Source: Candidatus Thermoflexus tengchongensis (lineage in GTDB: Bacteria > Chloroflexota > Anaerolineae > Thermoflexales > Thermoflexaceae). From it: a stretch of 36,209 nt of DNA. The stretch spans positions 1 to 36,209 of the forward strand of contig JAEVEX010000001.1 of assembly GCA_016842085.1 (NCBI GenBank), read 5' to 3'. Below, one piece after another: positions 955-26,981 of the stretch. How positions within the stretch are numbered: the first letter of the stretch is position 1; each line of letters begins with the position of its first letter. The notes beneath the pieces were generated by a model. The model worked only from the letters and a program-made list of their open reading frames with translations, was not told the DNA's origin and did no database searches. A program made the position numbers and the translations under genes.

Positions 955-3303
955 TCATGGGCCCTTCACGTGTTCTTTGTGACCTTCGTGGTGGGTTTTG
1001 TAGAGGTTGATGCGTCCGTCCCGACCATGGAGGCGCAGGCGGGTGGGAGTTATCCCGGAGACGGGCTCTGCTCCGGGGCATTCCCAGCCGCTGAGGGTCA
1101 GTTCGGCGACGAACGCGTCCTGCGCCAGGTGGAGGGTCAGCGAGTCGGCAGCGCGCTCCACCCGGCGCACCTCGGCGGTGGCGTAGCGGAGGAGGACGCC
1201 TTCCGTGACCTGCCATTCCAGAGGCAGGATGGCGCCCTGGCGCGCGGGCAGATGGACCGGGTGGCCGCCGAAAAGGAGCTCTCCCTGCCAGGCGACGGTG
1301 GTCGTTATGGGGTCGTCCTGGTAGTTGTGAATGAAAAGAAAACCGCCGTGCTTGCCCTGGCTCAGGCGCACGTCGGCCCAGTCGCTGAGGGCGAAGGCGG
1401 GGGGGCATCCCAGTTCCAGCGCCATACGGTGCAGGAGGTCCAGGTCTTCCAGGTTGTTGATTCTCAGCGCGGCGCCGAAGACCAGCGCCTTGCCCTGGCC
1501 CAGGTGTCGAATGAAGCCGACGGTCTCGCCTTGTCGGGAGGCAAACACCCCGTCGAAGTCGCCGCGATAGGTCTCCACAAAGGAGACGGGCACGTCCGTG
1601 TATCCAAAGGCGGTGATGCAGGAGGGGGTGAAGGGCGGGTCGCTATAGGCATCGACCACGCGGAGGGCGTCTCGCAGGAGAGGGCAGGGGTAACCATCCG
1701 CGTCGTATCGGGGCAGACGGCCGATCATGGCCAGCCGTCCGCCCGCGCGGACGTAGTCGGCCAGCTTCTGCTGGACTGCGGCGTCGCAGCGGTGTTCGAT
1801 CATCACCCAGAGCGTGGGGGTCTCGTTCGGATCCAGGACGGCGCGGGCCAGTTCCAACGCATGGAAGGGGCGGTGCGTCAACGCCAGGCCACGGGCGATG
1901 AAGTCGAAGAGGATGACCTCGCGCTGATGGGTGAGGATGCGGGTCGCTTCCCCAGTGGCCGGAGTGTTCACCTCGGTCATGAAGTCGTCCAGGCGGAAGC
2001 CAATCGCGGTGACGGTCTGCGGGCGGGCAAGGGTCAGGGCGTCGCCGTAGGCCGCCAGAGCGGCCGAGAGTTGGGGATAGCGCCCGTAATGGCGGCGGAG
2101 GGTGCCGTCTTTGCGGACAGGGTGGCCCCAGTCGTGGCGTTTGACCGGGGAAAGCAGGGGGTGGTTTTCGCCGTCAAAGAAAAGGTAGTGATTGATGGCC
2201 CGCATCCCGACGGAGAGGCTCAGGCGGGTGTGCAGGTCGTAGAAGGAGGTCTGCGCGCCGCTGAAGTCCTGGTTGCCGCCGGCCTGGAACTCCATGGAGA
2301 AGAGCGGCTGGTCCGGGTTCTGCAGGGCGCGGGTCATCTCGTTGACCAGCAGGAGCTCATGAAAGTTTCCTTCGTCGATGTGGCCCGGGTAGACGTCGGT
2401 GGCGGATAGGACGCCGGGCAGTTCTATGACCTCTATCAGTTGGGAGAGGCCGATGGGGAAGGTCTTGCCGCCGTTGGCGAAGCCGTGGATGTTAATGACC
2501 GGCGGCACTTCCAGGCCGCAGGCGCGGGCCTGTTCCAGCAGGTAAAGGGCATACCGGCGCAGATACGTGCGAAAGAAGCGGCGGTAGTCCTCAACAGCGC
2601 GGGCCGCCTGGGGGCTTTGGGGATCAGTAATGCCCTGGCGGAGCGCGGCGGTCAGGTCAGGGAACGGGTACCGCTCCGCCAGGCGGTCGCCGTAAACATC
2701 CCGCAGGTAATCGGCGAAGCAGGCCAGGGTATGAGGGTTCGTGTCCAGGATGTTGCGGACCCAGTGCATCATGCCCATCTCGTTATCCAGCTGGACAGCG
2801 AGGACCCGTCCGCCGCACGTGACCTGGCGGGGAGCGAGGACCTCGAAAACGGCGCGGTACCAGCGGGCGACGCAGGCCAGAAAGTCGGGGTGCAGATAAC
2901 TGACGATGTTCTGCGACTGCCCGTGCTGGTCCACAAAGGCCATCTGGGGGTAGCGGACGAAAACCCAGTCCGGGATGCCCTCGTTGATGGTCTCGGCCAT
3001 AATATACGGCCCGGGGCGGGGGAGAATCCAGAGGTCCATAGATGCGGCCAGGTCCAGGAAGCCGATGAGGTTCCGCATGGGATGGCTGTGGCCGTCAAAA
3101 TCCAGTTGGCCCTCTTCGGGCTCATGCCAGCGCCAGGGGATGTAGGTGGCGACGGCGTTGAAGCCGGCCGCCTTAAGCAGGCCAAGGCGGTGCTCCCAGG
3201 CGTCAGGGGGCGTGCGGAAGTAGTGGAATTCGCCTGCCTGGAGGAGGAGCGGACGGTTGTCTATCCAGAAGAGGTTGTTATGGACGGTGAAGGTCGGGCG
3301 CAT
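955..3303 (-). CDS. GH35-like beta-galactosidase
   Basis: A predicted retaining glycoside hydrolase of 782 residues that would remove terminal beta-galactosyl (or similar) units from oligosaccharides. The N-terminal third is a (beta/alpha)8 barrel with GH35 hallmarks: GEFHYFR (24-30), PRPGPYIMAE (95-104), QLDNEMG (171-177, E175 as acid/base) and SMEFQAGG with E338 as the likely nucleophile. All-beta domains follow. No signal peptide is seen, so it probably acts in the cytoplasm after import. The ATG at 3303 was chosen because GGAG precedes it by 7 bases; an upstream TTG at 3417 would translate a repeat. The last residues, including KTHHEGHKEH, are encoded by a dispersed repeat (958-1005). It is the last gene of the sugar operon, separated from the LacI gene by tandem hairpins. 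A GH42-like or other clan GH-A specificity cannot be excluded. Confidence 0.87.
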   Translation of the reverse strand: MRPTFTVHNNLFWIDNRPLLLQAGEFHYFRTPPDAWEHRLGLLKAAGFNAVATYIPWRWHEPEEGQLDFDGHSHPMRNLIGFLDLAASMDLWILPRPGPYIMAETINEGIPDWVFVRYPQMAFVDQHGQSQNIVSYLHPDFLACVARWYRAVFEVLAPRQVTCGGRVLAVQLDNEMGMMHWVRNILDTNPHTLACFADYLRDVYGDRLAERYPFPDLTAALRQGITDPQSPQAARAVEDYRRFFRTYLRRYALYLLEQARACGLEVPPVINIHGFANGGKTFPIGLSQLIEVIELPGVLSATDVYPGHIDEGNFHELLLVNEMTRALQNPDQPLFSMEFQAGGNQDFSGAQTSFYDLHTRLSLSVGMRAINHYLFFDGENHPLLSPVKRHDWGHPVRKDGTLRRHYGRYPQLSAALAAYGDALTLARPQTVTAIGFRLDDFMTEVNTPATGEATRILTHQREVILFDFIARGLALTHRPFHALELARAVLDPNETPTLWVMIEHRCDAAVQQKLADYVRAGGRLAMIGRLPRYDADGYPCPLLRDALRVVDAYSDPPFTPSCITAFGYTDVPVSFVETYRGDFDGVFASRQGETVGFIRHLGQGKALVFGAALRINNLEDLDLLHRMALELGCPPAFALSDWADVRLSQGKHGGFLFIHNYQDDPITTTVAWQGELLFGGHPVHLPARQGAILPLEWQVTEGVLLRYATAEVRRVERAADSLTLHLAQDAFVAELTLSGWECPGAEPVSGITPTRLRLHGRDGRINLYKTHHEGHKEHVKGP
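958..1005. repeat. Dispersed 'CACGAAGGTCACAAAG' repeat at the GH35 3' end
   Basis: On the minus strand the sequence ACCACGAAGGTCACAAAG and the following ACACG bases belong to the same degenerate family as 9898-9975 and 11979-12066. Here it supplies the last 15 or so codons of the GH35 gene, giving an unusual His/Lys/Glu-rich tail. Confidence 0.6.
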
Positions 3304-3362
3304 CGGTGTGCTCCATAAAAAGTTGAATCCCTGAGGGATAGTAGGCCTGCAGAAAACCGTGG

Positions 3363-3417
3363 TTGTATCGAATCCGTCCCGGGAGGTCCGGACGTAGACG
3401 TCCGGGCTCAGATACAA
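3363..3417. repeat. Nested inverted repeat upstream of GH35 gene
   Basis: Outer arms TTGTATC (3363-3369) and GATACAA (3411-3417) enclose a perfect inner hairpin CCGGACGT-AG-ACGTCCGG (3388-3405). It lies about 60-115 bases upstream of the GH35 start codon, within the LacI-GH35 gap. It may be a mobile repeat unit or an mRNA structure affecting GH35 expression. Confidence 0.55.
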
Positions 3418-3460
3418 AGCTCTTCGGGCTCATCGGAGCCTCCCCGCCAGGCGGATTTCC

Positions 3461-3547
3461 AGCCCCCTTCGGGGGGCTTTTACAAATTTAGCCCGGCGCT
3501 CAAGCGCCGGGCTTTCGCCAATTCAGCCCGGCGCCGGAGCGCCGGGC
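3461..3547. terminator. Three tandem hairpins between LacI and GH35 genes
   Basis: Hairpin 1 is AGCCCCC/GGGGGCT (3461-3478) and is followed by TTT on the plus strand. Hairpin 2 is GCCCGGCGCT-CA-AGCGCCGGGC (3491-3512), followed on the minus strand by TAAATTTGT. Hairpin 3 is GCCCGGCGC-CGGA-GCGCCGGGC (3526-3547). Hairpins 2 and 3 are near copies of each other. In the direction of transcription they follow the LacI stop and probably act as a partial terminator or an mRNA-stability block before GH35. No strong T-run supports full termination. Confidence 0.5.
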
Positions 3548-3580
3548 GACCCGCCGCGGCCGCCGCGGGTTCGCATACCG

Positions 3581-4561
3581 CTATTTTGCATTCCTACCCC
3601 TGAGGGAAGATTCCCGGACGACGAGATGGGCCGGGATGCGTTCGGCAGAGAAGGGAGTTCCGCGATCCAGAAACTCTATCAGCCCGGCGACAGCGCGAGC
3701 CCCCCAGTCGGTGCGGGAGACGCGGACGGTGGTGAGCGACGGCCGGAGGTAGCGGGCAACGGGGATGTCGTCAAAGCCCACCAGGGCCACATCCTGGGGA
3801 ACACGCAGGCCCCCTTCCTGCAACATGTGGAGGCACCCGATGGCCATCTGGTCGTTGGCGCAGACGATGGCCTCAGGGACGTCGCCTGAAGTGAGGATCT
3901 GCCGGGCAATCCGGTAGCCGGAGGCCTCGGTGAAATCGCCCTGGTAGAGGCGAACTTCCAGGCCATGCGCGCGGGCTTCTTTCAGGAAGGCCTGCTGGCG
4001 CTCGGCGTTATCAAAAGAATCGGCGGCGCCCGCGACGAAGGCCAGTTTCCGGACCCCCTGGCTGTAGAGATGCTGGAAGACCTGGCGTATGCCGCCGGGA
4101 TTGTCGATCAGCAAGGGGAAGACATGGTCGGCCTCTATGTAGCGATCCAAGACCACGATGGGAAAGTTCTTCCAGGCCAGGCTGATGAGGAGGTCGCTGG
4201 GAATTTTGACGTCAAAGACGATGGCCGCGTCCACCTGGCGGTTGGAGAGGATGCGGCTGATAGAGCGGGTCTCCGGGCAGATGACCAGTTCGTAATCGGT
4301 CTGCAGGATGACTTTGTGAATGCCCTCCAGGATTTCCTCATAGAAGAGGCCGCCCAGGGCGGCGATGAAGACGCCGATGGTGTAGGTGCGGCGCTTGCGC
4401 AGGTGGCGGGCATGGGCGTTGGGATGATAGCGCAGCTCCTCGGCGGCAGCCAGGACCCGCCGCCGGGTTTCTTCGCTGATGTTCCCCTTGCCGTTTAGGA
4501 CCAGGGAGACGGTGGTGATGCTGACTCCGGCACGCCGGGCCACATCTTTGAGGGTTACCAT
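3581..4561 (-). CDS. LacI-family transcriptional regulator
   Basis: A 326-residue repressor of the LacI/GalR family. The helix-turn-helix is at about residues 3-25 (LKDVARRAGVSITTVSLVLN), the hinge helix near 46-57 ends in HARHLRKRR, and a periplasmic-binding-protein-like effector domain fills about 60-320 (VCANDQMAIG, VGFDDIPVARY). These proteins bind a sugar and release a palindromic operator with a central CG. Such an operator, AGTAAAACGTTTTACT, lies at 20985-21000 on the promoter of the whole operon, so autoregulation together with the transport and glycosidase genes is the simplest model. Its ATG overlaps the TAA of the PF10091 gene by 7 bases. It is followed by tandem hairpins before GH35. 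The inducer cannot be read from the sequence. Confidence 0.95.
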   Translation of the reverse strand: MVTLKDVARRAGVSITTVSLVLNGKGNISEETRRRVLAAAEELRYHPNAHARHLRKRRTYTIGVFIAALGGLFYEEILEGIHKVILQTDYELVICPETRSISRILSNRQVDAAIVFDVKIPSDLLISLAWKNFPIVVLDRYIEADHVFPLLIDNPGGIRQVFQHLYSQGVRKLAFVAGAADSFDNAERQQAFLKEARAHGLEVRLYQGDFTEASGYRIARQILTSGDVPEAIVCANDQMAIGCLHMLQEGGLRVPQDVALVGFDDIPVARYLRPSLTTVRVSRTDWGARAVAGLIEFLDRGTPFSAERIPAHLVVRESSLRGRNAK

Positions 4562-5928
4562 TTCCTGATTTCCAGCCTCTCCAGACCTTTGAGGATGTAG
4601 GGGTTGTTCATCGTGATCCGGTAGACGACATCGTTCTGGGCATTCGCCAGCATCAGCAGGGAGATGCCCTTATCTATGCCGATGACGTCACGGGCGAACC
4701 AATCTTCAGTCAGGTTGAAGGCGTCCTGGAAACCGTAGGGACCCTTCAGCCGATCCAGAGTGAAATAATATACCATAGCCTGCCGGGATTGTTCGGGCAG
4801 GAAGAGGATGGACCCAATCGCCCCCGCCGGGGCGACGGTGTCGTCCACCAGGTGTTGCCGGTTGTCGTAGCCGGAGGGCGGCGCACCGTAACGGCCTTCA
4901 TAGCCGTGGGGGCCGTCGCAGGCGGTCAGGCCCCAGGCCAGGGGGCCGAGGGTCAGGTACTTTTCGTCCATATTCACCGCGAAGTTGTAGTGGGCCTTCG
5001 CGGCCTCCACGGAGTTGGCGAACCAGTCCACGCCCTGGCGGTCGGTCCGGCCGCGAAAGTCTATCCAGGCATGGCTGTACTGGTAGGTGAAGAGGGAGCC
5101 GAACCAGGAGTGGATGAAAGGCTGGCCGTCGCCGTAGCGGGCCCGGTGCCGGGTGAACGTGTAATAGATGGAGGGGTCCAAGGGATAGGTGGGGGAGCCG
5201 GCCGCCAGGACGTAGAGCATCAACTGTTCGGCGTAGAAGTCCCAGTGGCCCTCAAACCCTTTCTCAGGGCGGTAGGCCATATAGAACATGTTGCGGGAGG
5301 GATCCACGAACCAGGGCCACTCCACGGCCGTGTAGATCGCCTGCGCTTTGGCCTGCGTTTCGCCACCGCAGTAGTCGCCTGCGGTCAGGACGCCCATGAG
5401 CAGGATGGCGGTATCGATGCTGGAGACTTCGCTCTGCCAGGCCCTCTGTCCGGTCTCCATATCCAGGAAGTGGTAGTAGAAACCGTGCTCGCGAGGTATA
5501 GCCGCCAGGGTGTCCAGGGTTCCGTCTATGCGCGCACAGGCCTGCGCGCGGGGGATGTAGCCTTTCTCCACGCCGATCACATACGCGGTCAGCCCGAAGC
5601 CCACGGCGGCGATGCTGGAGATGCCCGGAGAACCGGGATAGCGATCCCGGATCAGGCCGTAACCGGGACTGCCGGGGGTTGTGTTGGCCTGCTCCCAGAA
5701 GAAGTTGAAGGCGCCGCGCATTTCCCACTCTATGACGTCATCGGCGGAGACCGGCGTGGGGGTAGGAGCAGGCCTCCACGTCGGGGAGGGGGAAGGCGGG
5801 ATGGCCGTGGGGGTCTGCTCCAGGACGGTCAACGTCACCGTCGGAGCCGGCGCGGCGCAGGCGGCCATGGTCAAAAGCGGAACGCAGACAAACGCAGATA
5901 TACGCCGATTTGCGCTTTGTTTATTCAC
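4555..5928 (-). CDS. PF10091 glycoamylase-family (GH144-like) lipoprotein
   Basis: A 457-residue exported lipoprotein with a GTG start (5928), preceded by GGGGA and overlapping the permease stop by 8 bases. An N-terminal signal with lipobox TMAAC (Cys near 24) leads to a Pro/Thr linker (about 30-60). The body (about 65-445) matches the PF10091 'glycoamylase' alpha/alpha-barrel: FNFFWEQAN, GLIRDRYPG, SSIAAVGFGLTAYVIGVEKG, FYYHFLDMETG, then SSIDTAILLMGVLTAG. Characterised members of this fold include GH144 endo-beta-1,2-glucanases and a domain of cyclic beta-1,2-glucan synthases, so it probably cuts a beta-glucan at the cell surface; older 'glucoamylase' names are misleading. Its product would be a substrate for the ABC importer and the GH94 enzyme. 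The first 20 codons overlap a dispersed repeat at 5878-5918. Confidence 0.85.
   Translation of the reverse strand: MNKQSANRRISAFVCVPLLTMAACAAPAPTVTLTVLEQTPTAIPPSPSPTWRPAPTPTPVSADDVIEWEMRGAFNFFWEQANTTPGSPGYGLIRDRYPGSPGISSIAAVGFGLTAYVIGVEKGYIPRAQACARIDGTLDTLAAIPREHGFYYHFLDMETGQRAWQSEVSSIDTAILLMGVLTAGDYCGGETQAKAQAIYTAVEWPWFVDPSRNMFYMAYRPEKGFEGHWDFYAEQLMLYVLAAGSPTYPLDPSIYYTFTRHRARYGDGQPFIHSWFGSLFTYQYSHAWIDFRGRTDRQGVDWFANSVEAAKAHYNFAVNMDEKYLTLGPLAWGLTACDGPHGYEGRYGAPPSGYDNRQHLVDDTVAPAGAIGSILFLPEQSRQAMVYYFTLDRLKGPYGFQDAFNLTEDWFARDVIGIDKGISLLMLANAQNDVVYRITMNNPYILKGLERLEIRKW
5878..5918. repeat. Dispersed 'ACGCAGA' repeat at the PF10091 5' end
   Basis: The plus strand shows degenerate iterations of ACGCAGA (AACGCAGACAAACGCAGATA, then ACGCCGATTTGCG). 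I recognise this as a common intergenic repeat type in several bacterial phyla. Here it lies inside the start of a gene and encodes the n-region and part of the hydrophobic core of the lipoprotein signal peptide. Confidence 0.55.
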
Positions 5929-6919
5929 CGGTAATCCCCGTCCTTTCTACGGATTCCACAAACCATCGCTGGAGGACGAAGTACATGACCAGGAGCGGCA
6001 GGATGTTCAGGAAGGTTCCGGCCAGTTTGATCGCTTCGTTCAGACGGTCAAAGATATTGACCGTGCCGGGCGGGTAGAGGTTCTGATAGGCCTGGACGAA
6101 CCGGGAAAGCTGCATCGGCAAGGTCTGGATGCCGCCTTCCAGAAAGATGACCGTCAGGTAGGTCTCGTTCCAGTACCAGACGATGGAGAAGATGAAGGAG
6201 ACGATGTAGGCCGGAAGGGCATTGGGGACCGCGATCTGGAAGAAGATGCGGGCCTCGGTGGCGCCGTCTATCCGGGCGGCCTCTTCCAGGACTTTGGGGA
6301 GGGAGAGGAAGGTCTGGTAGAAGATGAGTATGAAGATGGCGCTGCGGAATCCCTGACCGCCCAGGGCGGGGAGAACCAGCGACCAGAGCGTGCCCAGCAG
6401 GCCCAGGCGGCGGTAGGTCAGCATCTGCGGGATGGCGGTGTTCTGCGGCGGGATGATGAAGGTCGCCAGAATCAGGGCGAAGAGCAGGGGCTTGCCGGGA
6501 AAGCGGTAGCGGGCCAGTCCATAGCCGACAATGGAACAGACCACCGTCTGCAGAACCGAGGGCACCACGCTGACCAGGATGGAGGCCAGGAGGGTGGAGG
6601 GGTAGTTGAGCACCCGGAAGGCCCGGACATAGTTGCCGAAGTATAGCTCCGTCGGCACCCATTGCACCATCGGGTTGAGCAGGTCCGTGGGGCTCTTCAG
6701 GCTGGTGATGAGCATGAACAGGAGCGGGTAGAGGTAGACGAAGCCGATGGCCACCAGCAGGGCATACACCACCAGGATGAAGAGCAATCCATAGCGGGCA
6801 TGGGTGCCCAGCAGGACGCCGCGAACCCGATCCCGGTACCCCGGCCATTGAGCGAGCACGCTCCGGAGACGGGCCAGCCACTCAGAGGGGAGGGTCTTCC
6901 TCAACGGATGAGCCGCCAT
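5921..6919 (-). CDS. Sugar ABC transporter permease, MalG type (pair 2)
   Basis: Inner-membrane subunit of a carbohydrate ABC importer, 332 residues with a 45-residue cytoplasmic N-terminus and six predicted membrane segments starting around YGLLFILVVYALLVAIGFVY. The EAA loop that docks the ATPase is clear: EEAARIDGATEARIFFQIAVP at about residues 212-232. It forms a heterodimer with the MalF-type protein encoded 3 bases upstream. An AAAGGTG ribosome site lies about 7 bases before the ATG. No ATP-binding subunit is encoded in this operon. It is the second of two permease pairs and follows the DUF5696 gene, whereas pair 1 follows the large binding protein. Confidence 0.93.
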   Translation of the reverse strand: MAAHPLRKTLPSEWLARLRSVLAQWPGYRDRVRGVLLGTHARYGLLFILVVYALLVAIGFVYLYPLLFMLITSLKSPTDLLNPMVQWVPTELYFGNYVRAFRVLNYPSTLLASILVSVVPSVLQTVVCSIVGYGLARYRFPGKPLLFALILATFIIPPQNTAIPQMLTYRRLGLLGTLWSLVLPALGGQGFRSAIFILIFYQTFLSLPKVLEEAARIDGATEARIFFQIAVPNALPAYIVSFIFSIVWYWNETYLTVIFLEGGIQTLPMQLSRFVQAYQNLYPPGTVNIFDRLNEAIKLAGTFLNILPLLVMYFVLQRWFVESVERTGITGE

Positions 6920-6922
6920 CGC

Positions 6923-7804
6923 TCACACCTTTGCCGCACGGGATCGGAGGGCCAGATATACGATCAGCAAGATCAGGATCAGGACGGCGAAATACAGAAA
7001 GGACATCGCGCTGGCGTAGCCGATGCCGCCTTTGATGTCGTAGGTCTGGGTGTAGATATAGCGCACGAGTTTGTTTTCGGAAAAGTGCGAGAGGGTGATG
7101 ACGGTGTAGACCGCCACTACAATGTTGGTGGTAGAAAGGGAGGGGAGGGTGATTTTCCAGAAGGACTCCCAGGCGGAGGCGCCGTCTATGGCGGCGGCCT
7201 CGTAGATGCTGCGGTCTATCTTCTGCAGGCTGGCCAGGTAGATGAGAATCTGCACGCCGGAGAACCAGAGACTAAGGATGAACGACGTCATCAGATATTC
7301 GGCGGGGCCGCGCAGGACGCCGGGCAACCGGGCGAGGAACTCCAGGACGATCGGAGACTGGGCGATCTGGGGGACCGTCGTGGCGCCCTGGGCGACCAGT
7401 TCCCGGATGACCGGCCCGCTGGTGATGACAACAGGCAGGAAGAAGATGGTGCGGAAGAGGCCCTTCAGCGACAATTTCAGATTGAGGAAAAGGGCAATGA
7501 TGAGGGAGAAGATCATAATGATCGGCACCGAGAAGATGGTTTCCACCGCATATTCGATCAGCAGTTCCACGAAGATCGGGTCGGTGAAGAGGGCGCGCGT
7601 GTAGTTCTGCCAGCCGACGAAGGTCTGCTCCACGCCCGTGGCGGAGACGATGACATGGTTCAGGCTGTAGCGGAACGTCTCCACCAGGGGGACCAGGGTG
7701 AAAAGGATGAAGCCAACAATCCACAGGGCGACGAACGCGTAGCCCTGGAGGGCCTGTCGGGTGCGATAACGGAGGGATATGGAGGGACGGGACGGCGCTT
7801 TCAT
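6923..7804 (-). CDS. Sugar ABC transporter permease, MalF/UgpA type (pair 2)
   Basis: A 293-residue inner-membrane permease and partner of the MalG-type subunit just downstream. It has six predicted membrane helices, the first at about residues 22-44 (GYAFVALWIVGFILFTLVPL), and an EAA loop [21 protein letters not shown] near 205-225. Its ATG overlaps the DUF5696 stop as ATGA, which implies translational coupling. With two binding proteins and two permease pairs in one operon, this pair may serve one of the binding proteins with a distinct sugar specificity. The sequence does not say which. Confidence 0.93.
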   Translation of the reverse strand: MKAPSRPSISLRYRTRQALQGYAFVALWIVGFILFTLVPLVETFRYSLNHVIVSATGVEQTFVGWQNYTRALFTDPIFVELLIEYAVETIFSVPIIMIFSLIIALFLNLKLSLKGLFRTIFFLPVVITSGPVIRELVAQGATTVPQIAQSPIVLEFLARLPGVLRGPAEYLMTSFILSLWFSGVQILIYLASLQKIDRSIYEAAAIDGASAWESFWKITLPSLSTTNIVVAVYTVITLSHFSENKLVRYIYTQTYDIKGGIGYASAMSFLYFAVLILILLIVYLALRSRAAKV

Positions 7805-9993
7805 GGCGTTACCTCCCTGAGGAGAGCATCCCGCGCCGGGATGGTGAGGCCGTAGAGCTGGACGGGAGCCTCATTGTAATTAACCAGAATCTGTTTGCCG
7901 TTGCTGTAGGTGGTGGCGAAGACGCCCGGCGCGACCTGCTCGTGGCCGACGATGCTGGCGCCCTGGACCGGGGCCAGCAGTCCGTTCAGCCAGGCATAAC
8001 TTTCCTCTATTTCTTCTTCCAGCTGGCGATAGGCGGAGACGTAAATCCAATTGGAGCGGGTCTTCAGAATGCGGGCGGTCTCCTCGTGGGTCAGGAAGAA
8101 CGATGGATAGACGCCGTATTCGGCGTGCCGCAGCAGGTCGCCGCGCACGTCGGGGGAGAAGTTCAGCGCCTCGCCGTAGTAAGGGACGTATCCGGAGAGG
8201 ACGATGGGCAGAAACGGCACCGTCTGGGTGGTGAAAATGTAGCCGTTATCGGTGATGGGGAGGTCGTAGATGGCGCGGGCGTAGGCGAAGAGATAGTCGT
8301 TGGGCCGGTAGAGGGCCAGCGGGACGGGGGAACCCTCCAGCAGGGCCCGGTAGGCGGCGATGGCCTCTTCCCGGTTGAGGGAAGCGCCGCGGCGGAAGTC
8401 GGAATAGAGCGTGCCGCCGATGCCGTCCAGCGCCAGGCCGATTCCGCCTTCGTCTTTCAGGCTGCGGCTGAGGGCGGCGAAGCGGGATTGGAGGGCCTGG
8501 AGGTTGAAGTAGAAGTTGGGCTTGCCGCGCCGGTAGCCTCGCGGATAGTCGCCGGTAATGGCCATGGCCAGGTCGTAGCGGGAGAACGAGCCCGGCTCCT
8601 CTCGCAGCGCGGCGGTCGGGTCCAGATAGAGCGCAAAAGTCCCGCCACGGCGGGCGACCGCTTCGGCTACTTTCCGCAGGTCGGCCCGGCTTCCCAGGGC
8701 CCGCTCCAGTTGCAGGCGGTTGGGGAAGGCCGCCGACGCGCCGCCCGGCTGCCAGCCATAGTAGACCACCTGAGGGTTCTTCACGTCCAGCTGGGCCAGG
8801 ATTTCCTCCATCTGGGCGAGGGTGGTCATCGGGATGACCCGGTTCCAGAAGAGGACCCGCTCCCGCTCCGCGCCCAGAAACTCCAGGCGGATGCCGATAC
8901 CTCCGATGCGCATCTCCTGACGGCGCAACAATCCCTTCTCCAGCAGGTAGCGCTGGTAATTGCGCGCCATGCCGACGTAATTGGCCTCGGGGCCGGCCAG
9001 AAAGCGGTAGTGCAGGACGATGTCAAAGCGGTTGGTCTGTGGCTGGATGACGGTCACGCCGTCGCCGGAGCGGCTGGTGCGCTGGAAATAACTCTCGTTG
9101 TAGATGAAGGCGTTGTAGAGGAAATTGAAGTTGGTGATGATCCCGGCGGGATGGGCCTGAATTTCGGCGTAGGAAGCGCCTTTCTCCAGCACGGCCAGGT
9201 AAGCGTTGGGCCCGGCCGAGTGGACCATCCCGATGACCGGGACCGAGATGGGATACGGAGGCCGCAGGGTGGGATCAAAGGGCATGGAAACGAGCATGCC
9301 CAGGTCGGGGCCGTAGTAGCGGCCGTAATACATATTTTGGGCCCGGGTTTCGGCGGTGAAGCGAATCAGGCTTCCGCACCCGTCCGGAAGGAACATGTAG
9401 CCCGGGGTCTGGTCGCCCCGCGTGGCGCCCATCCAGGGATAGAGGTGAAGGACGCCCAGCCGAAACTCGCCTTCTTCCCGGATCCACTCCGAGGGCACCT
9501 CCACCCGCACGCCCGTCTCCTCCAGAGTGAGCTGCAATCCCACGGCGATGCCGATCTCGGTGAAGGCGACCTGGGCCCGGATGCCCTGCTCCACAGGTTG
9601 AATCTCTATGGTGTGCTTCGCGTTGGCGATGGAGGCGCGCTTGACGTTGGCCCGCCGGTCCAGGTAGTCCACGCTGAGACCGCTCTGGGCGAAGGCGGTC
9701 CAGGCCCTGTTCAAGCGGTCGCCCGGCGCGCGCTCGTCCAGGTTGGAGTGCCAGATGTAGTGATTGCGCCGGTCCACGACTTTGAAGGCCAGCGTCTCCG
9801 GGTTGACATACAACCGGAAGGTCCCGTTTTCGGCCACCAGCTGGTAGGTCTCCGGGATCCCGTCCGGGCGGGGCGCGGCATGCACGGGAGGGACCCCGAA
9901 GGACACGAAGGAGAACAAAAAGGACACGAGGATGAAAGTTCCGAGCCCTTTGTGTGCCCTTTGGGACCTTCGCGGCAAACCTTTTACGCCCAT
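7801..9993 (-). CDS. DUF5696-type secreted protein, possible TIM-barrel glycosidase
   Basis: An exported 730-residue protein. The signal peptide spans about residues 1-40 (charged n-region, LVSFLFSFVSFG core, cleavage near VHAA). A beta-rich domain (about 45-330, starting with FRLYVNPETLAFKVVDRRN) precedes what looks like a (beta/alpha)8 barrel (about 360-620), with strand-end motifs VVYYGWQPGG (409-418), FALYLDP (453-459) and GLALDGIGGTLYSD (519-532). The alternating beta-sandwich and barrel, and Asp residues at strand ends (D458, D523), recall clan GH-D/GH-A enzymes. I match it to DUF5696 from memory, and from memory such proteins sit near sugar ABC and YIP1 genes in Paenibacillus. The catalytic role is inference. 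Start ATG has GGGGA before it, one base after the NHL-YIP1 stop. The signal-peptide DNA is a dispersed repeat (9898-9975). Confidence 0.7.
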   Translation of the reverse strand: MGVKGLPRRSQRAHKGLGTFILVSFLFSFVSFGVPPVHAAPRPDGIPETYQLVAENGTFRLYVNPETLAFKVVDRRNHYIWHSNLDERAPGDRLNRAWTAFAQSGLSVDYLDRRANVKRASIANAKHTIEIQPVEQGIRAQVAFTEIGIAVGLQLTLEETGVRVEVPSEWIREEGEFRLGVLHLYPWMGATRGDQTPGYMFLPDGCGSLIRFTAETRAQNMYYGRYYGPDLGMLVSMPFDPTLRPPYPISVPVIGMVHSAGPNAYLAVLEKGASYAEIQAHPAGIITNFNFLYNAFIYNESYFQRTSRSGDGVTVIQPQTNRFDIVLHYRFLAGPEANYVGMARNYQRYLLEKGLLRRQEMRIGGIGIRLEFLGAERERVLFWNRVIPMTTLAQMEEILAQLDVKNPQVVYYGWQPGGASAAFPNRLQLERALGSRADLRKVAEAVARRGGTFALYLDPTAALREEPGSFSRYDLAMAITGDYPRGYRRGKPNFYFNLQALQSRFAALSRSLKDEGGIGLALDGIGGTLYSDFRRGASLNREEAIAAYRALLEGSPVPLALYRPNDYLFAYARAIYDLPITDNGYIFTTQTVPFLPIVLSGYVPYYGEALNFSPDVRGDLLRHAEYGVYPSFFLTHEETARILKTRSNWIYVSAYRQLEEEIEESYAWLNGLLAPVQGASIVGHEQVAPGVFATTYSNGKQILVNYNEAPVQLYGLTIPARDALLREVTP
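9898..9975. repeat. Dispersed 'GACACGAAG' inverted element within DUF5696 start
   Basis: Plus-strand iterations of GGACACGAAGGAGAACAAAA and GGACACGAGG are followed, after a short spacer, by the opposite-strand form CCCTTTGTGTGCCCTTTGGG. The element is therefore hairpin-like. Its two arms encode the basic n-region and the hydrophobic core of the DUF5696 signal peptide. The same plan is seen at 11979-12066. Confidence 0.65.
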
Positions 9994-9994
9994 T

Positions 9995-12085: not shown

Positions 12086-13128
12086 CCCTTCAACCCGGAA
12101 TGGGACATGGTGCTCATCACCTGGCTTTGCAGGATCATGAAGATGATCAGGTTGGGCAGGAACATAATCAGCGCGGCCGCAGCGGCCACTCCCTGCCCGG
12201 CGACGACGTTGGCGCCTGACGTTGTGGTGGCCAGCGTGCTCAGGTAGAACGCGAAGGTCTTCAGACTCTCAATGTTGATATACATCGCCGAGGTGTCCGC
12301 GTTGTTCCAGGTGGCCTGGAAGGTCAGAATGGCGATGGTGGCAATGGCCGGCCGGACTATCGGCAGGACGATGTGCCAGTAAATCTGCAGGTCGGAGGCC
12401 CCGTCTATCTGGGCGGCTTCTATGACCTCGTTGGGGACCGTGTCCATGAACTGCTTGAGCAGAAAAACGCCCACCGGCATGGCCAGCGAGGGGAGGATGT
12501 GGGCCCAGAAGGAGTCGATCAGGCCCAGCCGGGCGATGATCAGGAAACGGGGGATGGTGACGGCGATGGGGACGAACATCAGCGCCACCGTGTTGATGGC
12601 GAACAGGGTCTGCTTGAGGCCGAAGCGCTTTTTAGAAAGCGCGTAGGCGGCCAGGCTGGAGACGAGGATGGAGGCGGCCACGGAGATCACCGTGACCACG
12701 ATGCTGTTGAACAGGTAGCGGCTGACGGGCACGTCCGAGGTAGACATCAGCGTGAAGAGGTCGCGGAAGTTTTTCAGGGTTGGGTTCACCACGAAGAAGC
12801 GCGGCGGGTAGACGAAGAGCTCCTCGGCGGGCTTGAAAGCCGTGGAGAAGATGAAGATGATGGGCAGGAGCATAAAGGCCACCACCGGCGTCAGGATGAG
12901 ATAGAAGGGGATCTGGCTGGGGTGGAAACCGGCGGGGTTGATGCCGCTGCCGCGCAGGCCGTACCAGCGGCCAAGCCATTTGCGTTTCGTGGGGGCTGTC
13001 TGAACGCTCGCTGGCAGGGAGACACGGGACGAAACGGGGCGCCATTTTATCGGACCGGGGCGTCGCTCCGCCTCGCTTCGGGGCTGAATACGGGCGCTTT
13101 CCTCTGCGCGTTTTTCCGACCATTCCAT
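12082..13128 (-). CDS. Sugar ABC transporter permease, MalG type (pair 1)
   Basis: A 348-residue inner-membrane permease. The usual MalG core begins around residue 67 ([20 protein letters not shown]), has six predicted helices, and carries the EAA loop [22 protein letters not shown] near 235-256. The ATG at 13128 is kept because GAGGAGGG precedes it by 7-8 bases and no other start lies before the first helix. The resulting 60-residue, Arg/Pro/Ser-rich cytoplasmic extension is unusual for the family and may be repeat-derived. It starts 4 bases after its MalF partner and overlaps the NHL-YIP1 start as ATGA. It depends on an ATPase not encoded here. Confidence 0.93.
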
Positions 13129-13132
13129 CGCT

Positions 13133-14043
<911 letters not shown>

Positions 14044-14047
<4 letters not shown>

Positions 14048-16896
14048 TTCCTCTCCGCGTTCTCCATCCACTGGCGCACCATTTCTATTGTAGGGACCTT
14101 GATTTCGCGAAGCGGGACGCCGTTATGGGTATAACCCAGCTCCTCCATCTTGCGCGCCATCTCGCGATTGATGGTCAGGATGGCGCTATCAATCGCCACA
14201 CGCGGGTTCACGCCGTCGAAGACGATGCGGTTCCAGGCGTTGCTCAACTCCCGCTCCTGCATATACGTGCCCGGCAATCGGACCGGCTGCCGCATCCATC
14301 CCCACTGCTTCAGGATGACGTCCTTGTGCTCCTCCGGGATGGGCAGGGCGCGGAAGGCCTCCACATTGGCGGTGTACCAGAGGTATTCCGGCCCGTAGTT
14401 CATGATGAGTTGACGGCTGAATTCCGTCTGCGTCTCGGTGGACATCCACCACTTCAGGAATTCCCACGATTCCTGCGGTTTTTCAGTATCCGCCAAGATG
14501 ACGCAGGTCTGGGCTGAGCCGGTGGCATAGCGATACTGCCGCCCGTCGGGCAGGACGGTGGCCGGATAGAGAGCAATCCCCCACAGGCCTTCTATCTCCG
14601 GGGCGGCGATGCGCAACTTGATGTAGGTCTCCGCATTGGAGATGCCCACCGGCAGATCCCCGTTGCGGAAACTGTCGTAGAAACTGACGGCCGTGAGCGG
14701 CATCCCGTAGACGGTGAACTGCTCGGCCATAAACTGGAGGCCCCGGATGGCCTCCTCGCTGCCCAGTCCGGTGCGCAGGCCGTCCGGCGTGTAGAGCTCG
14801 CCGCCGAAATTCCAGATATACGGCGCGGTGACCAGATAGCCCTTCAGGCCACTGCCGGCGGAGAGCGGGGTGTAGTAGTTCATACCATAGCGCTGGAGTT
14901 CAGGCAGAATCGCGATGACTTCGTCCCACGTCTGGGGGACCGGGAGCCCCAACCGCTCCAAAATGTCCCGCCGGTAGAAGGTCACCCAGAAGTCCTGCGT
15001 CTCCGGGATGGCGTAGACCGAGTCATTGATGATGTATTCCAGGAGTGCCCCGGGCGAGTAGATGCGGATGAAGGAATCGAAGTCCTCAAAGGAGCGCAGG
15101 TCATAGAGGGCGCCGCGCAGGGCCAGTTCAAAGGGGATGTTGGTGCTGATGCCCAGCGCCACGTCGGGCGCGATGCCCGCCGCAATCGCCAGGGCCAGTT
15201 TGGACTCGTTGGGCATTAGCGAAAACTTGACCCGGATGCCCGTCCGGGGGGTGAACGTCTGGTCCGCCAACTGCTGCATCAGGTCCACATACTGGCGCGG
15301 GCGGTTGACCCAGACCTCTATCTCATCCCTGGCCGCGCCGATGGAGAGATAGGGGGTTTGCTGGAAGGAGTGGATGAGCCGCTTGATATTCTCGATGAAC
15401 GCCTGTCCGATGGGAATCCGGGGCTGGGGCGGCGTAACATCCGGCGAATGCACATAGATTTTGTCCAGCGTGAGGGGCTGCTGCCGCAGGGCCGAGAGGA
15501 CGCTTCCCAGCAACTGGGCCGCCGACTGGGGCCCTTCGGAGAGGCGGTTCATCCGCACCGGGATCTTGTTCGGGTCCGCCTCCAACAGTCGGATGTTCTC
15601 CAGCGCCATCTGGTAGTTCATAATTTCCTGCGAGTTCATCCCGTTGTTGATGGCCTGCAGGGCAGCCTTGTCGGCAGCGAGTTTGTCGGCGATGGTCGCC
15701 AGCCGTTCCTGAAGATCCGGGATGTACTCGGCAATTTCCCACTCCCGGTACCGATCCACCTGGTTGCCCGTCAGCCGCCGGATCTCTAGCGCCAGGTCGT
15801 TGATGATGCGGATGGACTCGCGGATGTTCGTGATGGCGGTGTCATAGGGAGAGGTGGTGACCTCCAGGCCGATGACGTTCCGACCGGCTTGCAGGTGGAC
15901 GCGATAGGGCAGGGTGACGTTCCGCCACCCGGCAGAATAGGCGAAGGGCACCGCGTGGAATTCATCAAAGGGAACGACGCCGTTGATGGTGATGCGCCGG
16001 AAGACGGTGAAGTTGGGGCGGGTGTCCTGCAGGACGCGCAGGGTCAGCAGGTACATGCCGTCCTGGGGCACCGCCACTTCGTAATACAGCGCGCTCCCGC
16101 TCTGTTTCCACGAATCCCCGCCGATGGTGTTGAGGATCAGACGGTAGGTGTCGTAGGGGGTTACGTCCAGACCGCGATTGTAGAGAGGACGGATGGAGGC
16201 ATCATTCTTAAAGGAAGGCCATTCGGCCTCCACTTCCACCTGCACGCCCGACGTGTCCGGGGCCGGTGTCTGGGCCAGGTATTGGCTGTATGAGGGCTCC
16301 GGCGAAAAGGGACGAAAGTAGATGCTTCCCAGCAGGAGCGTCTCGCGGGCAAGCACGAACTCAACGGCGTGCTCGCCCCGCGTCAGGTGGATGGTCAGGG
16401 GGTATTTCCGGCTGAAGTTCACGTCCCGCAGCGAGACCTCGGTCCAGCGCGCCAGGCGCACCGGCGGGGCGGGAATCTGATGCCCGTAGCGGTTCAGGGG
16501 GAACTCGTCGGTCGCGCTGCGGTAGTAGAGGGGGAAGAGGATGCGACGGGCATCTTCCACCGGAAGGGCACCATCCACGAACAGCTGGCCTTCCGGCGGG
16601 AGGAACAGGACCTCCTCCGGCGCGGCGGCGTCAAAGGAGACGGTGTAATCGCCCTCGGTTTCGATCCGGATAGAGAAGCGGACCCGGTCGCCCTTCTCCA
16701 GGCGGACGCAGGGCTTCCCATACTGTCGAGCGAGGGGATCATCGGCCAGGGGCAGGCCGAACGCATCGGCGCGGACCTCGAGGGCCTGCCCTCCCGACCC
16801 GGGGAGAGGAGCGGCGAACAGGGACCTCGGCGGCGGACTGGCCAGGCCGCCGATGACCAGAAGAAGCAGCAGAAAGCAAGGGACCCTGCCCTTCAC
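14044..16896 (-). CDS. Large extracellular binding protein with N-terminal CBM-like domains
   Basis: A 950-residue exported protein starting at GTG 16896 (weak ribosome site) with a signal peptide [20 protein letters not shown] and no clear lipobox. The first half contains two beta-sandwich, carbohydrate-binding-like modules (about 35-165 and 215-370; [34 protein letters not shown]) and a helical connector (about 370-460). The second half (about 515-930) is a family 1 solute-binding domain: [65 protein letters not shown], then [14 protein letters not shown]. Typical binding proteins are 420-550 residues, so this is a fusion that could hold a polymer while passing oligosaccharides to permease pair 1. 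A long GC hairpin lies just upstream of the gene. Confidence 0.88.
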
Positions 16897-16928
16897 GGCA
16901 CGCTGACCCTCAGGAAGAGCAGTGGGTT

Positions 16929-16986
16929 TGGCGGCGGGCGGCGCTTCAGGCGAGCCTCCGCATGGGCCCTGCGCCGCCCGCCGCCA
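16929..16986. promoter_or_regulatory. GC-rich 16-bp stem-loop between the two binding-protein genes
   Basis: Arms TGGCGGCGGGCGGCGC (16929-16944) and its exact complement (16971-16986) enclose a 26-base loop. It lies in the 123-base gap between the sugar-binding lipoprotein gene and the rest of the operon. Such a structure after a binding-protein gene commonly stabilises its mRNA and reduces downstream expression. No T-run follows, so complete termination is unlikely. Confidence 0.7.
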
Positions 16987-17019
16987 GTTCGTTCATCTAC
17001 CGGAGGATGAGGGGGCGCC

Positions 17020-18450
17020 CTACGGCTTCAGCTCGGCCCGCGCCTCATCCAGCAACCGATTGGCGAACTCCTCCAGCCGGGCGGCGTAGTCCTCGTATTT
17101 GTACTTGCCCGAGCAGGCGAAGTTGAACATGTACCACATATTCACATCCTTGTCTGTGCCGATGTCAATCCCGGGCTTGCCTTCCCAGCGGGCGGCCACG
17201 TAGCCGGGCACGATCTTCGCCAGCGACTCCAGCCGGCTTTTATCCAGGTTCTCAAACGCCGCGCGCAGGCCCGGCTTCTCGCCAACGAAGGAGAGGTACA
17301 AATTAATGGTGTCGGCGTCCACATAGACCGGCATGCGGGTCGGCACCTGCTTGGCCGCTCGGGCGATCTCGGCCTCCGCGAGATACCCTTCGCGCGAGTA
17401 GGTCATCCACTTGGCGAACTTAAAGGCCTCCTCCAGGTTGGCCGAGGTCTTGGAGACGACGATGATGTCGGCCACCAGCGCCTGGTTGCCGCCGGGGATG
17501 CCCAGGAAATCCCAGTTGAAGGTCGCCTGCTGGGCGAAGGCGGGGACCATCCAGCCGCCGTCCCAGCGGACGCCGGACTCCTGGTTCAGGAACAGTTCCC
17601 ACGGGCCCTGGGACTTGAAGTTGGGCTTCTGCTCGTCGGTCAGGCCCTGCCAGGTGTGCGGCAGCACCTCGCAGGCCTTCGCGACAGCGGCCTTGAAGGC
17701 GTCGGAGTTGTAGTGCATATGCTGGCCGTCGAAACTGAACCACTTCAGCTTGGGGTCCTGGGTGCTGGGGTACCAGCCCAGGATGAACTCCATCTCGTCC
17801 AGGCCCAGGCGGCCCTTTTTGACATCGGTCAGCGCGGTGACGGCAGCGAAGAAGTCATCCGCGGAGACGCCGTAGGTTGGCGCATCCAGGTTGTTGGCCT
17901 CAAAGAGGTCGATGTTGACGAAGTAGCCCATTACGAACTGTGCCGCCGGAAGGCCCAGCACCTTGCCGTTATAGGTGACGGCGTCCCGCAGGACCTGGGG
18001 CACCTGCTGCCAGTCGGGGTCGTTGCTGACGAAGGGGGTCAGGTCGGCCAGCCAGCCGTTCTTGACGTAGAGCGGGGTTTTATCGGCCATGAAGACATCC
18101 GGCAACTGACCCTTTGCCGCCAGCGCCGTCAGTTTGTCGTCCCAGGAGCCTTCGCCCGACATGTCCACAATCTCAATGGTGACATGGGGGTTCAGTTCCA
18201 TATACTTCTTGACCAGCTGACGCTGGACGTTGTTTTCCTCTGCGGTGCCCAGGTTCCAGTTCGCGTAGCGGAGCGTCACGGGCGCTGGGGTGGGGGTGGA
18301 AGTGGGAGCTGGTGTCGGTGCGACCGTTGGGGTCGGAGGCGTCGTGGGCTGGGGAGACGGGGTGGGCGTAGCCGCGGGCGCGCATCCGGCCAAGACGACC
18401 GCAAGCGTGGCGATGACCGCCAAGAGACGAGACCCTTTCAGCGCTGTCAT
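17020..18450 (-). CDS. Sugar-binding lipoprotein of ABC transporter (family 1)
   Basis: A 476-residue surface lipoprotein that captures sugar for an ABC importer. The ATG at 18450 is preceded by GGAGGAGAGGAA; a longer frame opening at a GTG (18543) has no spaced ribosome site and no signal-like start. Signal peptide with lipobox VLAGC (Cys near 23), Pro/Thr linker to about 55, then the family 1 binding fold: [79 protein letters not shown]. The second gene of the operon, 113 bases after GH94. A stem-loop follows, consistent with higher expression than the membrane genes. The sugar cannot be named; a beta-gluco-oligosaccharide is a guess from the neighbours. Confidence 0.93.
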
Positions 18451-18563
18451 TTTCCTCTCCTCCTCCTTCGTCTGGTGGGAATGGGTGATAGAAACTGGAC
18501 GGATAGATGTCGGGGAAGCGATTGGGAATTTTCCGCAGGCCACCTCCTTTCTGGTAAAAGGGT

Positions 18564-20957
18564 TTATCTTGCGCCACGGCCCATCAGGACTTCCACTTGG
18601 TGAACCTGCCCGTCCTGCAGGGCCGGGATAAGCGGACGCTCCAGAGGCTTCCCGTCCAGCCAGACGGCACGCACCCCCCGATTCACGAAATCCGGGTTAC
18701 GGACCACGATATGGTAGACCGCGTTGCGGAATCTCCGCCGGACGGTGAAACCCTCCCAATGGGCCGGAATGCAAGGGTCGATCAGCAGGCCCTCCTCCTG
18801 GGGACGGATGCCCAGAATCCAGTGGGTCGCCACCCGATGCAGCCATTGGGCCGAACCGGTGTACCAGGTCCATCCACCGCGCCCGTAATACGCCGAGGCG
18901 GGACCGTCCACGTTTCCGGGGGTGACGTAGGGCTCGGCCTTGTAGACGTCAATATCCCGGCTGCGATTGGGCGGGCAGATGCGCCGGTAGACCTCGTAGG
19001 CCCGTTCGGGCTCGCCGATGAGGATGTAAGCCCAGATGGCCCAGGTGGCAGCGTGGGTGTAGATGCCGCCGTTTTCCCGCAGACCGGGCGCATAGCGGGT
19101 CACGTAGCCGATGTCGGGGCGGGGGCGGGTGAAGGCCGGGGAGTTCAGCAGGGGACCGTAGCCCGTGAGCAGGCGCTTCGTGACTGAATCCATTCCGATT
19201 CGAGCCCTCTCTTCATCCGCGGCGCCGCTGATGACGGCCCAGACGTTGGGCATCAGGAAGATTTTGCCCTCGTCGTTCTCCCTGGAGCCCACGGGGAGAC
19301 CGTCGTCCGTGGTGGCCTGCTGGTACCATTCCCCGTCCCAGCCGTAGCGGTTGAGAGCGTCCTTCAGGCTGGCACGCACATCCTCACACTTGCGGGCGAA
19401 CCGTTCGTCCCCGCGCCGCCGCGCCAGCGGGATGAAGTTGCCCAGGATGTAGTAGAGGAACTCCGCCACCCAGAAACTCTCGCCCTTGAGCGCTGTGCCC
19501 ACCGCGTTCAGGCCGTCGTTCCAGTCATGGTCGCCCATCAGGGGGACGCCGCGCGGGGAGAAGCGGGAGAAGGCGCGCTCGATGGCCCGTTTGCAGTGGT
19601 CGTAGAGGGGCTCCGCCGGGCCGTTCAGATACGGGACAGGCTCGTCCAGGATGGCGTAATCGGCAGTCTCTTTCAGGTAGGCATCCAGGACGAAGGGGAG
19701 CCAGAGCAGGTCATCGGAGCAGTTGGTGCGCGGCCCGCCTCCACGAATGGAGAACCACCAGTGGAGCACATCGCCCTCCACGAACTGCTGGGCCGCGTGC
19801 AGGAGCAACTGTCGGCGGGTGCACTCCGGCTCGCTGACCAGAAAGATGAGGCTGTCCTGCAACTGGTCGCGGAAGCCATAGCCGGCGGAGACCTGGTAGC
19901 AGGCGGACTTGCCCCACAGTCGGCAGGAAATGGCCTGATACTTGAGCCAGTAGTTGGTCATCACGTTCAGCGCCGGGTCGGGCGTCTCCACATGCTCCGG
20001 CTCCACAAAGCGGGCCCAGAGGGCGTGCACCTCTTCCAGGGCCCGGGCGCTCCCTTCGGGAGAGGCGTAGCGGGCGATCAGTTCATACGGGTCTTCCCGG
20101 CCGTTCTCGGCGGCGCCCAGGGTGAAAACCACCGTTTTGCTTTCTCCGGGTTCCAGCTGGACCTCTACCTGCAGGGCGGCGACCGCGTCGCCGAACCGCC
20201 CGCTCCGCCCGGCCAGGCGCTCCTGCCGCATGGCCTGAGGGTGCTCCTCACACTCGTAGAGGCCGATGAACGACTCTTTGTCACAGTCAAACGATTTCAG
20301 CGACGCGCTGACCGCCATGAAGGCCGTGTAGGGCCAGTCTATATTGTTATGGCGTCCCTTCTCGTCCGGGAAGCCCCAGAGGTACTTGCGGGCGAAGAGG
20401 GCGCTTCGGTCCGGATCGGCCCAGGTCTCTATGAACAGTTTGTGGAATTCCCGGTGCTCGTCGGGGGCGAAGCCCAACAGCCATTCGGCGTAGGAGGTGA
20501 CATCCAGGGAGCGAGGGGTGATCCCGGTGTTGGTCAGGCGCAGTTCCCAGACCTCCACCGGGTCCCGCGCGGAGACGAAGACGGTCAGTTCGCTGCGGAT
20601 GCCGTTGATGCTCTGGAGGAATCTGGAGTATCCCAGACCGTGCACTACCCGGTATTCGTCATACGGATGCATCACGGGCTTATACGTGGCCGACCAGTAG
20701 CGGCCGGTCTGGAGGTCGCGGATGTAGAAATACTTGCCCCAGTTGTCCTTGACCAGGTCCTGGAAAGCGCGGGTGATGCGGTTCTGCCCGGCGTTGCCCC
20801 GCCAGCTGTAGCCGGAGCCGGTCTGGGAGACCAGGAGGCTGTAGTCGCCGTTGCTGATAATGTTGCACCAGGGGCGCGGCGTCAGAGGGGTCGTGATGAT
20901 GTACTCACGGCCATCTTGAGCAAAGTGGCCGTAGGGGTTGGAGAACTCCATCCACAT
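18564..20957 (-). CDS. GH94 family inverting beta-glycoside phosphorylase
   Basis: A 797-residue cytoplasmic enzyme that would cleave a beta-linked disaccharide or oligosaccharide with phosphate to give alpha-sugar 1-phosphate. An N-terminal beta-sandwich (about 1-290; [33 protein letters not shown]) leads to an (alpha/alpha)6 barrel with GH94 hallmarks [11 protein letters not shown] (360-370), [12 protein letters not shown], and [12 protein letters not shown] containing the likely general acid D481, then [20 protein letters not shown]. The length fits cellobiose or chitobiose phosphorylases (about 790-820) better than cellodextrin or 1,2-beta-oligoglucan enzymes. The exact substrate is open. 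First gene of the operon: AGAGGTGA ribosome site, and a promoter/operator 30-75 bases upstream. Phosphorolysis saves ATP, fitting an energy-limited heterotroph. Confidence 0.93.
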
Positions 20958-20984
20958 TCACCTCTCGGAGAATGGGACCCTATG

Positions 20985-21000
20985 AGTAAAACGTTTTACT
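20985..21000. promoter_or_regulatory. LacI-type operator AGTAAAACGTTTTACT
   Basis: A 16-bp perfect palindrome with the central CG typical of LacI/GalR operators. It begins one base after the -10 box, so it covers the transcription start of the GH94-led operon, where repressor binding would block initiation. The LacI-family gene in the same operon (3581-4561) is the obvious candidate regulator. No second copy was found by eye. Confidence 0.8.
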
Positions 21001-21001
21001 T

Positions 21002-21029
21002 ATTTTACCGCGGTATATGGATTTGTCAA
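21002..21029 (-). promoter_or_regulatory. Sigma70-type promoter of the carbohydrate operon
   Basis: On the minus strand a perfect TTGACA (21029-21024), a 16-base spacer containing the small palindrome TACCGCGGTA, and a -10 box TAAAAT (21007-21002). It drives rightmost gene GH94 and probably the whole minus-strand cluster. Confidence 0.8.
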
Positions 21030-26927: not shown

Positions 26928-26949
26928 CGGCCCCTCCTTTCTTCAGCTC

Positions 26950-26981
26950 AGGTAGGACAACTGCTCGCAGGTGTCCTACCT
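26950..26981. terminator. Inverted repeat AGGTAGGACA/TGTCCTACCT
   Basis: A 10-bp perfect stem with a 12-base loop between the C45 hydrolase stop and the binding-protein start. On the minus strand no T-run follows, so it is more likely an attenuator, an mRNA-processing site or a dispersed repeat than a full terminator. Confidence 0.5.

Follow-up and report, generated by a model that had tools for sequence, protein, structure and literature searches.

The window, the whole 36,209-nucleotide stretch of DNA analysed here, corresponds to contig C30 of a Chloroflexota (Anaerolineae) MAG, which is 3.9 Mb in size and 95% complete. ORF and Pfam searches revealed twelve genes on the minus strand, running from position 20957 to position 955, which encode two solute-binding proteins (SBPs), two MalF-MalG permease pairs, enzymes and a LacI-family regulator. 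In the order of transcription, the products are a GH94 phosphorylase, SBP2, bigSBP, MalF1, MalG1, an NHL-TPR-YIP1 protein, a DUF5696 protein, MalF2, MalG2, a GH144-type protein, LacI and a GH35/GH42-like enzyme. The strand and coordinates of all twelve genes, their Pfam families and the doubling of both the binding protein and the permease pair agree with a preliminary description of this DNA.

The same description assigned ATGA or 1–8 bp junctions to the operon. This holds from bigSBP to LacI, where every junction is an overlap or a gap of 1–4 bp: bigSBP and MalF1 overlap, MalF1 and MalG1 are separated by 4 bp, YIP1 and DUF5696 by 1 bp and MalF2 and MalG2 by 3 bp, MalG1/YIP1 and DUF5696/MalF2 feature ATGA overlaps, and the MalG2/GH144 and GH144/LacI overlaps measure 8 and 7 bp, respectively. 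It does not hold at the two ends, where larger gaps separate GH94 from SBP2 (20 bp), SBP2 from bigSBP (123 bp) and LacI from the GH35-like gene (163 bp, or 277 bp if the likely ATG at 3303 is used). Because of the length of this last gap and the presence of several GC-rich hairpins within it (3490–3570), it is uncertain whether the GH35-like gene is co-transcribed with the rest of the operon; the hairpins may separate it from the genes upstream.

A Pfam search of all genes in the 955–20957 operon revealed no ATPase, as had been claimed, and the ATPases next door (21578–23457) are of the Dpp/Opp type. These are part of a separate minus-strand cluster (21578–33443) encoding a Dpp/Opp-type ABC importer with its own ATPases, an AAT-type acyltransferase, a CoA-transferase III, acyl-CoA dehydrogenases, a class III aminotransferase and an IclR regulator, a catabolic locus that is unrelated to the glucan operon. 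On the plus strand, a CAP/SCP-domain protein of 591 residues is encoded at 33641–35416. An Rfam search of the window returned no match.

A putative sigma70-like promoter (TTGACA-16-TAAAAT; 21002–21029, minus strand), identified by consensus match alone (11 of 12 positions), lies upstream of GH94. It is adjoined by a 22-bp palindrome (20982–21003) with a AGTAAAACGTTTTACT core, the 11-nt arms of which are 91% complementary and which is the sole exact match within the window. Related AAACGTTT-centred palindromes are found upstream of, or near, the GH94 start in six of seven other beta-1,2-glucan loci, the pattern one would expect if these sites are operators for the encoded LacI. The palindrome is thus a probable LacI operator. 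The LacI-family regulator (326 residues; 3581–4561, minus strand; Pfam LacI and Peripla_BP_3), when bound at this site, would repress GH94 and the genes that follow it.

Three enzymes indicate the likely substrate. The GH94 phosphorylase (797 residues; 18564–20957, minus strand; Pfam GH94, 401 bits) is by sequence of the SOGP/CGS kind, as it scores 571 bits to CGS (8rf9/8rf0) versus 493 bits to cellobiose phosphorylase. The GH144-type endo-beta-1,2-glucanase (457 residues; 4555–5928, minus strand; PF10091), a probable lipoprotein, scores 217 bits to 8xul (XCC2207, i.e., XcSGL) and 149 bits to the endo-beta-1,2-glucanase 5gzh, and its best solved relatives are XcSGL and CpSGL-type structures. 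The GH35/GH42-like enzyme (955–3417, minus strand, with a likely start at 3303 judged from the sequence; Pfam GH35, 136 bits) is closest to the beta-1,2-glucosyltransferase IaSGT (236 bits to 7vkw). Because three independent enzymes point to beta-1,2-glucan, we infer that this polymer is the substrate of the operon. SBP2 (507 residues; 17020–18543, minus strand) is a lipoprotein SBP, with a lipobox in its sequence and an SBP_bac_1 match; it has a solved close relative (706 bits to PDB 22hh-22hl), and a literature search found no paper for PDB 22hh.

The central seven genes, from bigSBP to MalG2, form a cassette. The first encodes bigSBP (950 residues; 14044–16896, minus strand), in which Pfam matches, together with a model and fold search of residues 36–530, delineate a signal peptide, a CBM6/35-like domain (Z 15 in the model), a second beta-sandwich, a helical region and a C-terminal SBP domain. 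The fold search did not place the second beta-sandwich by itself in any known family. The C-terminal domain matches SBP_bac_1/SBP_bac_8, as does SBP2, and is well conserved across phyla; bigSBP shows a weak match (47 bits) to Lin1841, and full-length homologues among plasmids occur only in cassettes. The polymer capture suggested in the preliminary description is plausible, given the predicted CBM6/35-like module in a 950-residue SBP. The fourth gene encodes a 696-residue protein (9995–12085, minus strand) consisting of an NHL beta-propeller, a TPR region and a Yip1 membrane domain; Yip1 scores 32.4 bits against a Pfam cut-off of 28.6, while the TPR match falls below its cut-off. NHL-TPR and YIP1 are encoded by one gene in some lineages and by two in several others, and gene fusion and fission commonly indicate that the products are linked physically or functionally. 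Both bigSBP and DUF5696 carry signal peptides and, with few exceptions, no lipobox; for this reason they may be held by membrane partners in a monoderm.

MalF1 (13133–14071), MalG1 (12082–13128), MalF2 (6923–7804) and MalG2 (5921–6919), all encoded on the minus strand as cassette genes 2, 3, 6 and 7, match BPD_transp_1 and contain the EAA coupling loop, which is kept in nearly all copies of the four permease types across cassettes, a few sequences having escaped the search pattern. The MalF1 loop is one residue longer than that of MalF2 and of the recognised other CUT1 MalF proteins of the window genome, and the extra residue is present in every cassette in which the pattern was found, Bacillota included. 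When compared with CUT1 permeases of their own genomes, F1, F2, G1 and G2 are each monophyletic, even though their members come from different phyla. The permease doubling therefore predates the spread of the cassette, and a local duplication of one permease pair in this lineage was rejected on this tree, which includes few outgroups.

The order bigSBP-MalF1-MalG1-NHL/YIP1-DUF5696-MalF2-MalG2 is complete and collinear at 34 of 42 loci (33 recognised by script, plus L018, which has an extra unrelated pair downstream). Seven of the eight incomplete loci lack only genes at the outer ends, where the contig or the sampled stretch stops. In one genome, two contigs (L005:1-2854 and L117) share the cassette, the break lying between YIP1 and DUF5696. 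This genome was rejected as a counter-example to the order, as the missing first half was found at the end of the other contig, which stops about 200 bp after YIP1; the split may reflect an insertion or an assembly fault. Among the 42 loci, no intact locus contradicts the order and no intact cassette has a single permease pair. Conservation of the order outside close relatives, on which the preliminary description was beforehand to stand or fall, was found both in Bacillota and in further families of Chloroflexota, and the proposal survives.

Loci with beta-1,2-glucan enzymes occur in Anaerolineae and in one other Chloroflexota family. In further Chloroflexota families, the cassette is found at roughly 25–48% identity next to RNase J, FtsK, ThiG, RelA or defence genes, and most other Chloroflexota cassettes sampled have housekeeping neighbours, without sugar genes, so that glycan import is no more than a possibility for them. 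The cassette is substrate-independent and also occurs without beta-1,2-glucan enzymes. At individual loci, it adjoins an AnmK/beta-lactamase-domain gene or BrxC/D and TerB genes (L063:3789-6182 and L072:3087-6070), and a cassette other than the one next to AnmK adjoins a D-Ala-D-Ala carboxypeptidase gene. The Bacillota sample consists of two cassettes, both plasmid-borne, and the phyletic breadth is a lower bound. These two cassettes (26–57% identity) have different neighbour genes: on a Paenibacillus cellulosilyticus plasmid, a UgpC ATPase gene lies directly upstream and flavin monooxygenases downstream, and on the Butyrivibrio plasmid pNP243, the cassette adjoins GH43. Horizontal spread is possible. 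A search for relatives on viral contigs found none.

Of 301 sampled Chloroflexota genomes, one and the same set of 27 encodes DUF5696 at full length together with NHL-TPR/YIP1 proteins, either full-length or split. These genomes are related and do not represent 27 independent events, and they span at least nine families; the next YIP1-profile match beyond these genomes is NHL-only (76 bits). Since gene order is kept over 42 loci and DUF5696 and YIP1 co-occur in this way, a chance arrangement is excluded. Gene-tree distances of the seven cassette genes correlate with r values of 0.95–0.98 over 32 loci and 0.75–0.98 among 12 divergent loci, a degree of correlation that shared ancestry alone also produces. 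By these sequence comparisons, the cassette behaves as one inherited unit.

CUT1 systems that share an ATPase are known to have no ATPase gene in the operon. The preliminary description held that a shared ATPase is encoded elsewhere, and a genome-wide search is in line with this: the sole UgpC/MalK-type candidate with an OB_MalK domain is on contig C13, where its operon also encodes a separate binding protein and permeases, and is UgpC-like, scoring 423 bits where the cut-off is 432. The window genome encodes three other TOBE-type ATPases. In two single-contig genomes, the sole OB_MalK ATPase gene is unlinked to the cassette, at a distance of 533 kb (G118) and 227 kb (G238). MalK-type ATPases are also found in a cassette-free genome (G208), and their presence is not discriminating. 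Multitask ATPases of the MsmX type are known (PMC7658222, PMC5730181). An unlinked MalK/UgpC-type ATPase would probably be shared by the cassette.

The fifth cassette gene (7801–9993, minus strand) encodes the DUF5696 protein (730 residues with a signal peptide; Pfam DUF5696, 564 bits). Its AlphaFold2 model (pTM 0.78, mean pLDDT 66) has a GH129-like fold, as evidenced by whole-length matches to GH129 enzymes (Foldseek E 1e-27; Z 22.4 and rmsd 4.4 over 566 residues to 5opq). None of 22 DUF5696 members, window protein included, matched Glyco_hydro_129 in Pfam up to an E value of 10. Some non-cassette Chloroflexota proteins match both the DUF5696 and the GH129 Pfam models, and one is a clear NagBb relative (326 bits). 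In NagBb, we take D435 to be the nucleophile and E478 the acid/base. GH129 columns were mapped onto DUF5696 from one profile alignment. In this mapping, 38 of 41 members lack Glu in the acid/base column. All 27 proteins of the beta-1,2-glucan clade carry Tyr there, and of the 14 others three carry Glu; in these three, the nucleophile column is occupied by Arg or Leu. The Asp of strand beta4 (D523 in the window protein) is present in 27/27 members of the beta-1,2-glucan clade and in 1/15 of the others, never together with the acid/base Glu. The His/Asp columns mutated in 5wzq are not conserved in DUF5696. A literature search on DUF5696 found no paper.

These residues weigh against DUF5696 as the source of the cutting suggested in the preliminary description, although the predicted fold is GH129-like. 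The GH144 lipoprotein, which is outside the conserved cassette, is more likely the cutting enzyme. The label "catalytically dead" was considered for DUF5696 and dropped, as 40 of 42 members retain D532, which lies near an Asp (D486) mutated in ZgGH129, and as ZgGH129 itself carries Gly in the column of the NagBb nucleophile; judging by residue conservation, some catalysis may persist. In two genomes, DUF5696 proteins (L073:8686-11136 and L074:8764-11220) contain a two-helix membrane hairpin just after D532 and the beta4 strand, an insertion that fits DUF5696 lying on the membrane.

CUT1 importers of the MalEFGK/MsmEFGK type with a shared MsmX-type ATPase resemble the cassette in having SBP_bac_1 proteins, MalF/MalG-type permeases with EAA loops and no linked ATPase. 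The cassette differs from them in having two permease pairs, an SBP of 950–1150 residues with added domains and no lipobox, a MalF1 EAA loop lengthened by one residue, and two obligate additional proteins, NHL-TPR-YIP1 and DUF5696, in fixed order. YIP1-family proteins are reportedly encoded near an ABC permease in leaderless-bacteriocin clusters (e.g., bawcin), where the permease context differs from that of the cassette; to our knowledge, these proteins have no propeller or TPR part. GH129 enzymes (NagBb, 5wzn; ZgGH129, 5opq) resemble DUF5696 in the whole-length predicted fold and through bridging sequences. In contrast to these enzymes, DUF5696 has neither a conserved acid/base Glu nor the 5wzq His/Asp columns, and is encoded beside permeases.

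The beta-1,2-glucan (SGL/SOGP) clusters of Ignavibacterium album (IALB_1177-1187) and Listeria innocua (Lin1839-1841) share with the window operon GH144, CGS-type GH94, GH35-type SGT, LacI-type control and a sugar ABC transporter. In the available text of the Ignavibacterium report, the enzyme combination is identical to that of the window operon, and a Sopn-binding protein and an ABC transporter are named, with no mention of YIP1, DUF5696 or a double permease pair (PMC8861115). Literature searches for YIP1 with sugar permeases found no relevant paper, and none describing the cassette arrangement. The seven-gene order as a conserved cassette is new here, while the parts themselves are CUT1-type.

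We consider it fairly probable that the cassette is a composite CUT1-type ABC importer module, which in the window is set between beta-1,2-glucan enzymes. At the sequence level, this reading draws on gene content, gene order and its conservation in two phyla, EAA loops, the lack of a linked ATPase and enzyme kinship, and further on predicted folds; the substrate, a single physical complex, the roles of YIP1 and DUF5696 and the sharing of the ATPase are what we infer. The GH144 lipoprotein would cut extracellular beta-1,2-glucan into sophoro-oligosaccharides, which would be captured by SBP2 and the CBM-bearing bigSBP, the latter serving permease pair 1. Uptake would proceed via two permease heterodimers, both coupled through their EAA loops to the unlinked MalK/UgpC-type ATPase. 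YIP1 would anchor an extracytoplasmic propeller-TPR platform in the membrane and link the two halves. DUF5696, with its glycosidase fold, would be a glycan-binding or delivery component in the usual SBP place before a MalF-MalG pair. Inside the cell, the product would be degraded by the CGS-type GH94 and the GH35-type enzyme. In terms of gene order, the YIP1 protein stands between two units that each consist of [extracytoplasmic protein]-MalF-MalG. A more specific version, in which DUF5696 is the substrate receptor of pair 2, a degenerate glycosidase fold replacing an SBP, and NHL-TPR-YIP1 joins the halves into a double-channel importer, is tentative and, in our estimate, unlikely.

The same layout would also suit two independent, ordinary CUT1 importers lying side by side with their own binding proteins, YIP1 and DUF5696 being separate passengers of a co-regulated operon. 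Both halves look like regular units and have complete EAA loops, SBP2 resembles any ordinary lipoprotein SBP, and the halves are on different contigs in one genome (L005). However, independent units would not keep a fixed order in two phyla with the same two additional genes in the middle, nor does this account for the finding that, among 301 genomes, DUF5696 and YIP1 occur in precisely the same 27; moreover, single-pair cassettes are absent among intact loci, and no classical SBP precedes pair 2 at any locus. We regard this explanation as doubtful.

Similar doubts surround DUF5696 as an active, exported GH129-like glycosidase that trims imported glycan at the membrane. The predicted fold (Z 22.4 over 566 residues to 5opq), the bridging proteins that match both Pfam models, and the retention of D523 in 27/27 members of the beta-1,2-glucan clade and of D532 in 40/42 members overall are all in its favour. 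Yet the acid/base column is Tyr throughout that clade and Glu in only 3/14 others, and in these three the nucleophile column is Arg or Leu; the window protein has no GH129 Pfam match, and known GH129 enzymes are alpha-galactoside-type, not beta-glucan enzymes. Quite improbable, in our view, is that the cassette imports or senses a common cell-envelope product, with beta-1,2-glucan use as a secondary recruitment. Several Chloroflexota cassettes have no adjoining sugar gene, the SBP domain of bigSBP is conserved across phyla to a degree unusual for substrate-specific receptors, and AnmK and D-Ala-D-Ala carboxypeptidase genes lie beside one cassette each. Each envelope neighbour, however, was seen only once, and the CBM-like and glycosidase-like folds, as well as the GH43 gene beside the Butyrivibrio cassette, point to glycans.

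If the seven genes do act together as a unit, the cassette would represent a form of ABC importer in which two pairs of permeases are combined with two further, obligatory subunits, conserved from Chloroflexota to Bacillota. DUF5696 and a bacterial YIP1 protein would thereby gain a testable role, and one would have to ask how two channels and a shared ATPase are put to use within a single transporter system. The cassette would then also serve as an added marker for glycan uptake in monoderm bacteria, rumen Butyrivibrio included.
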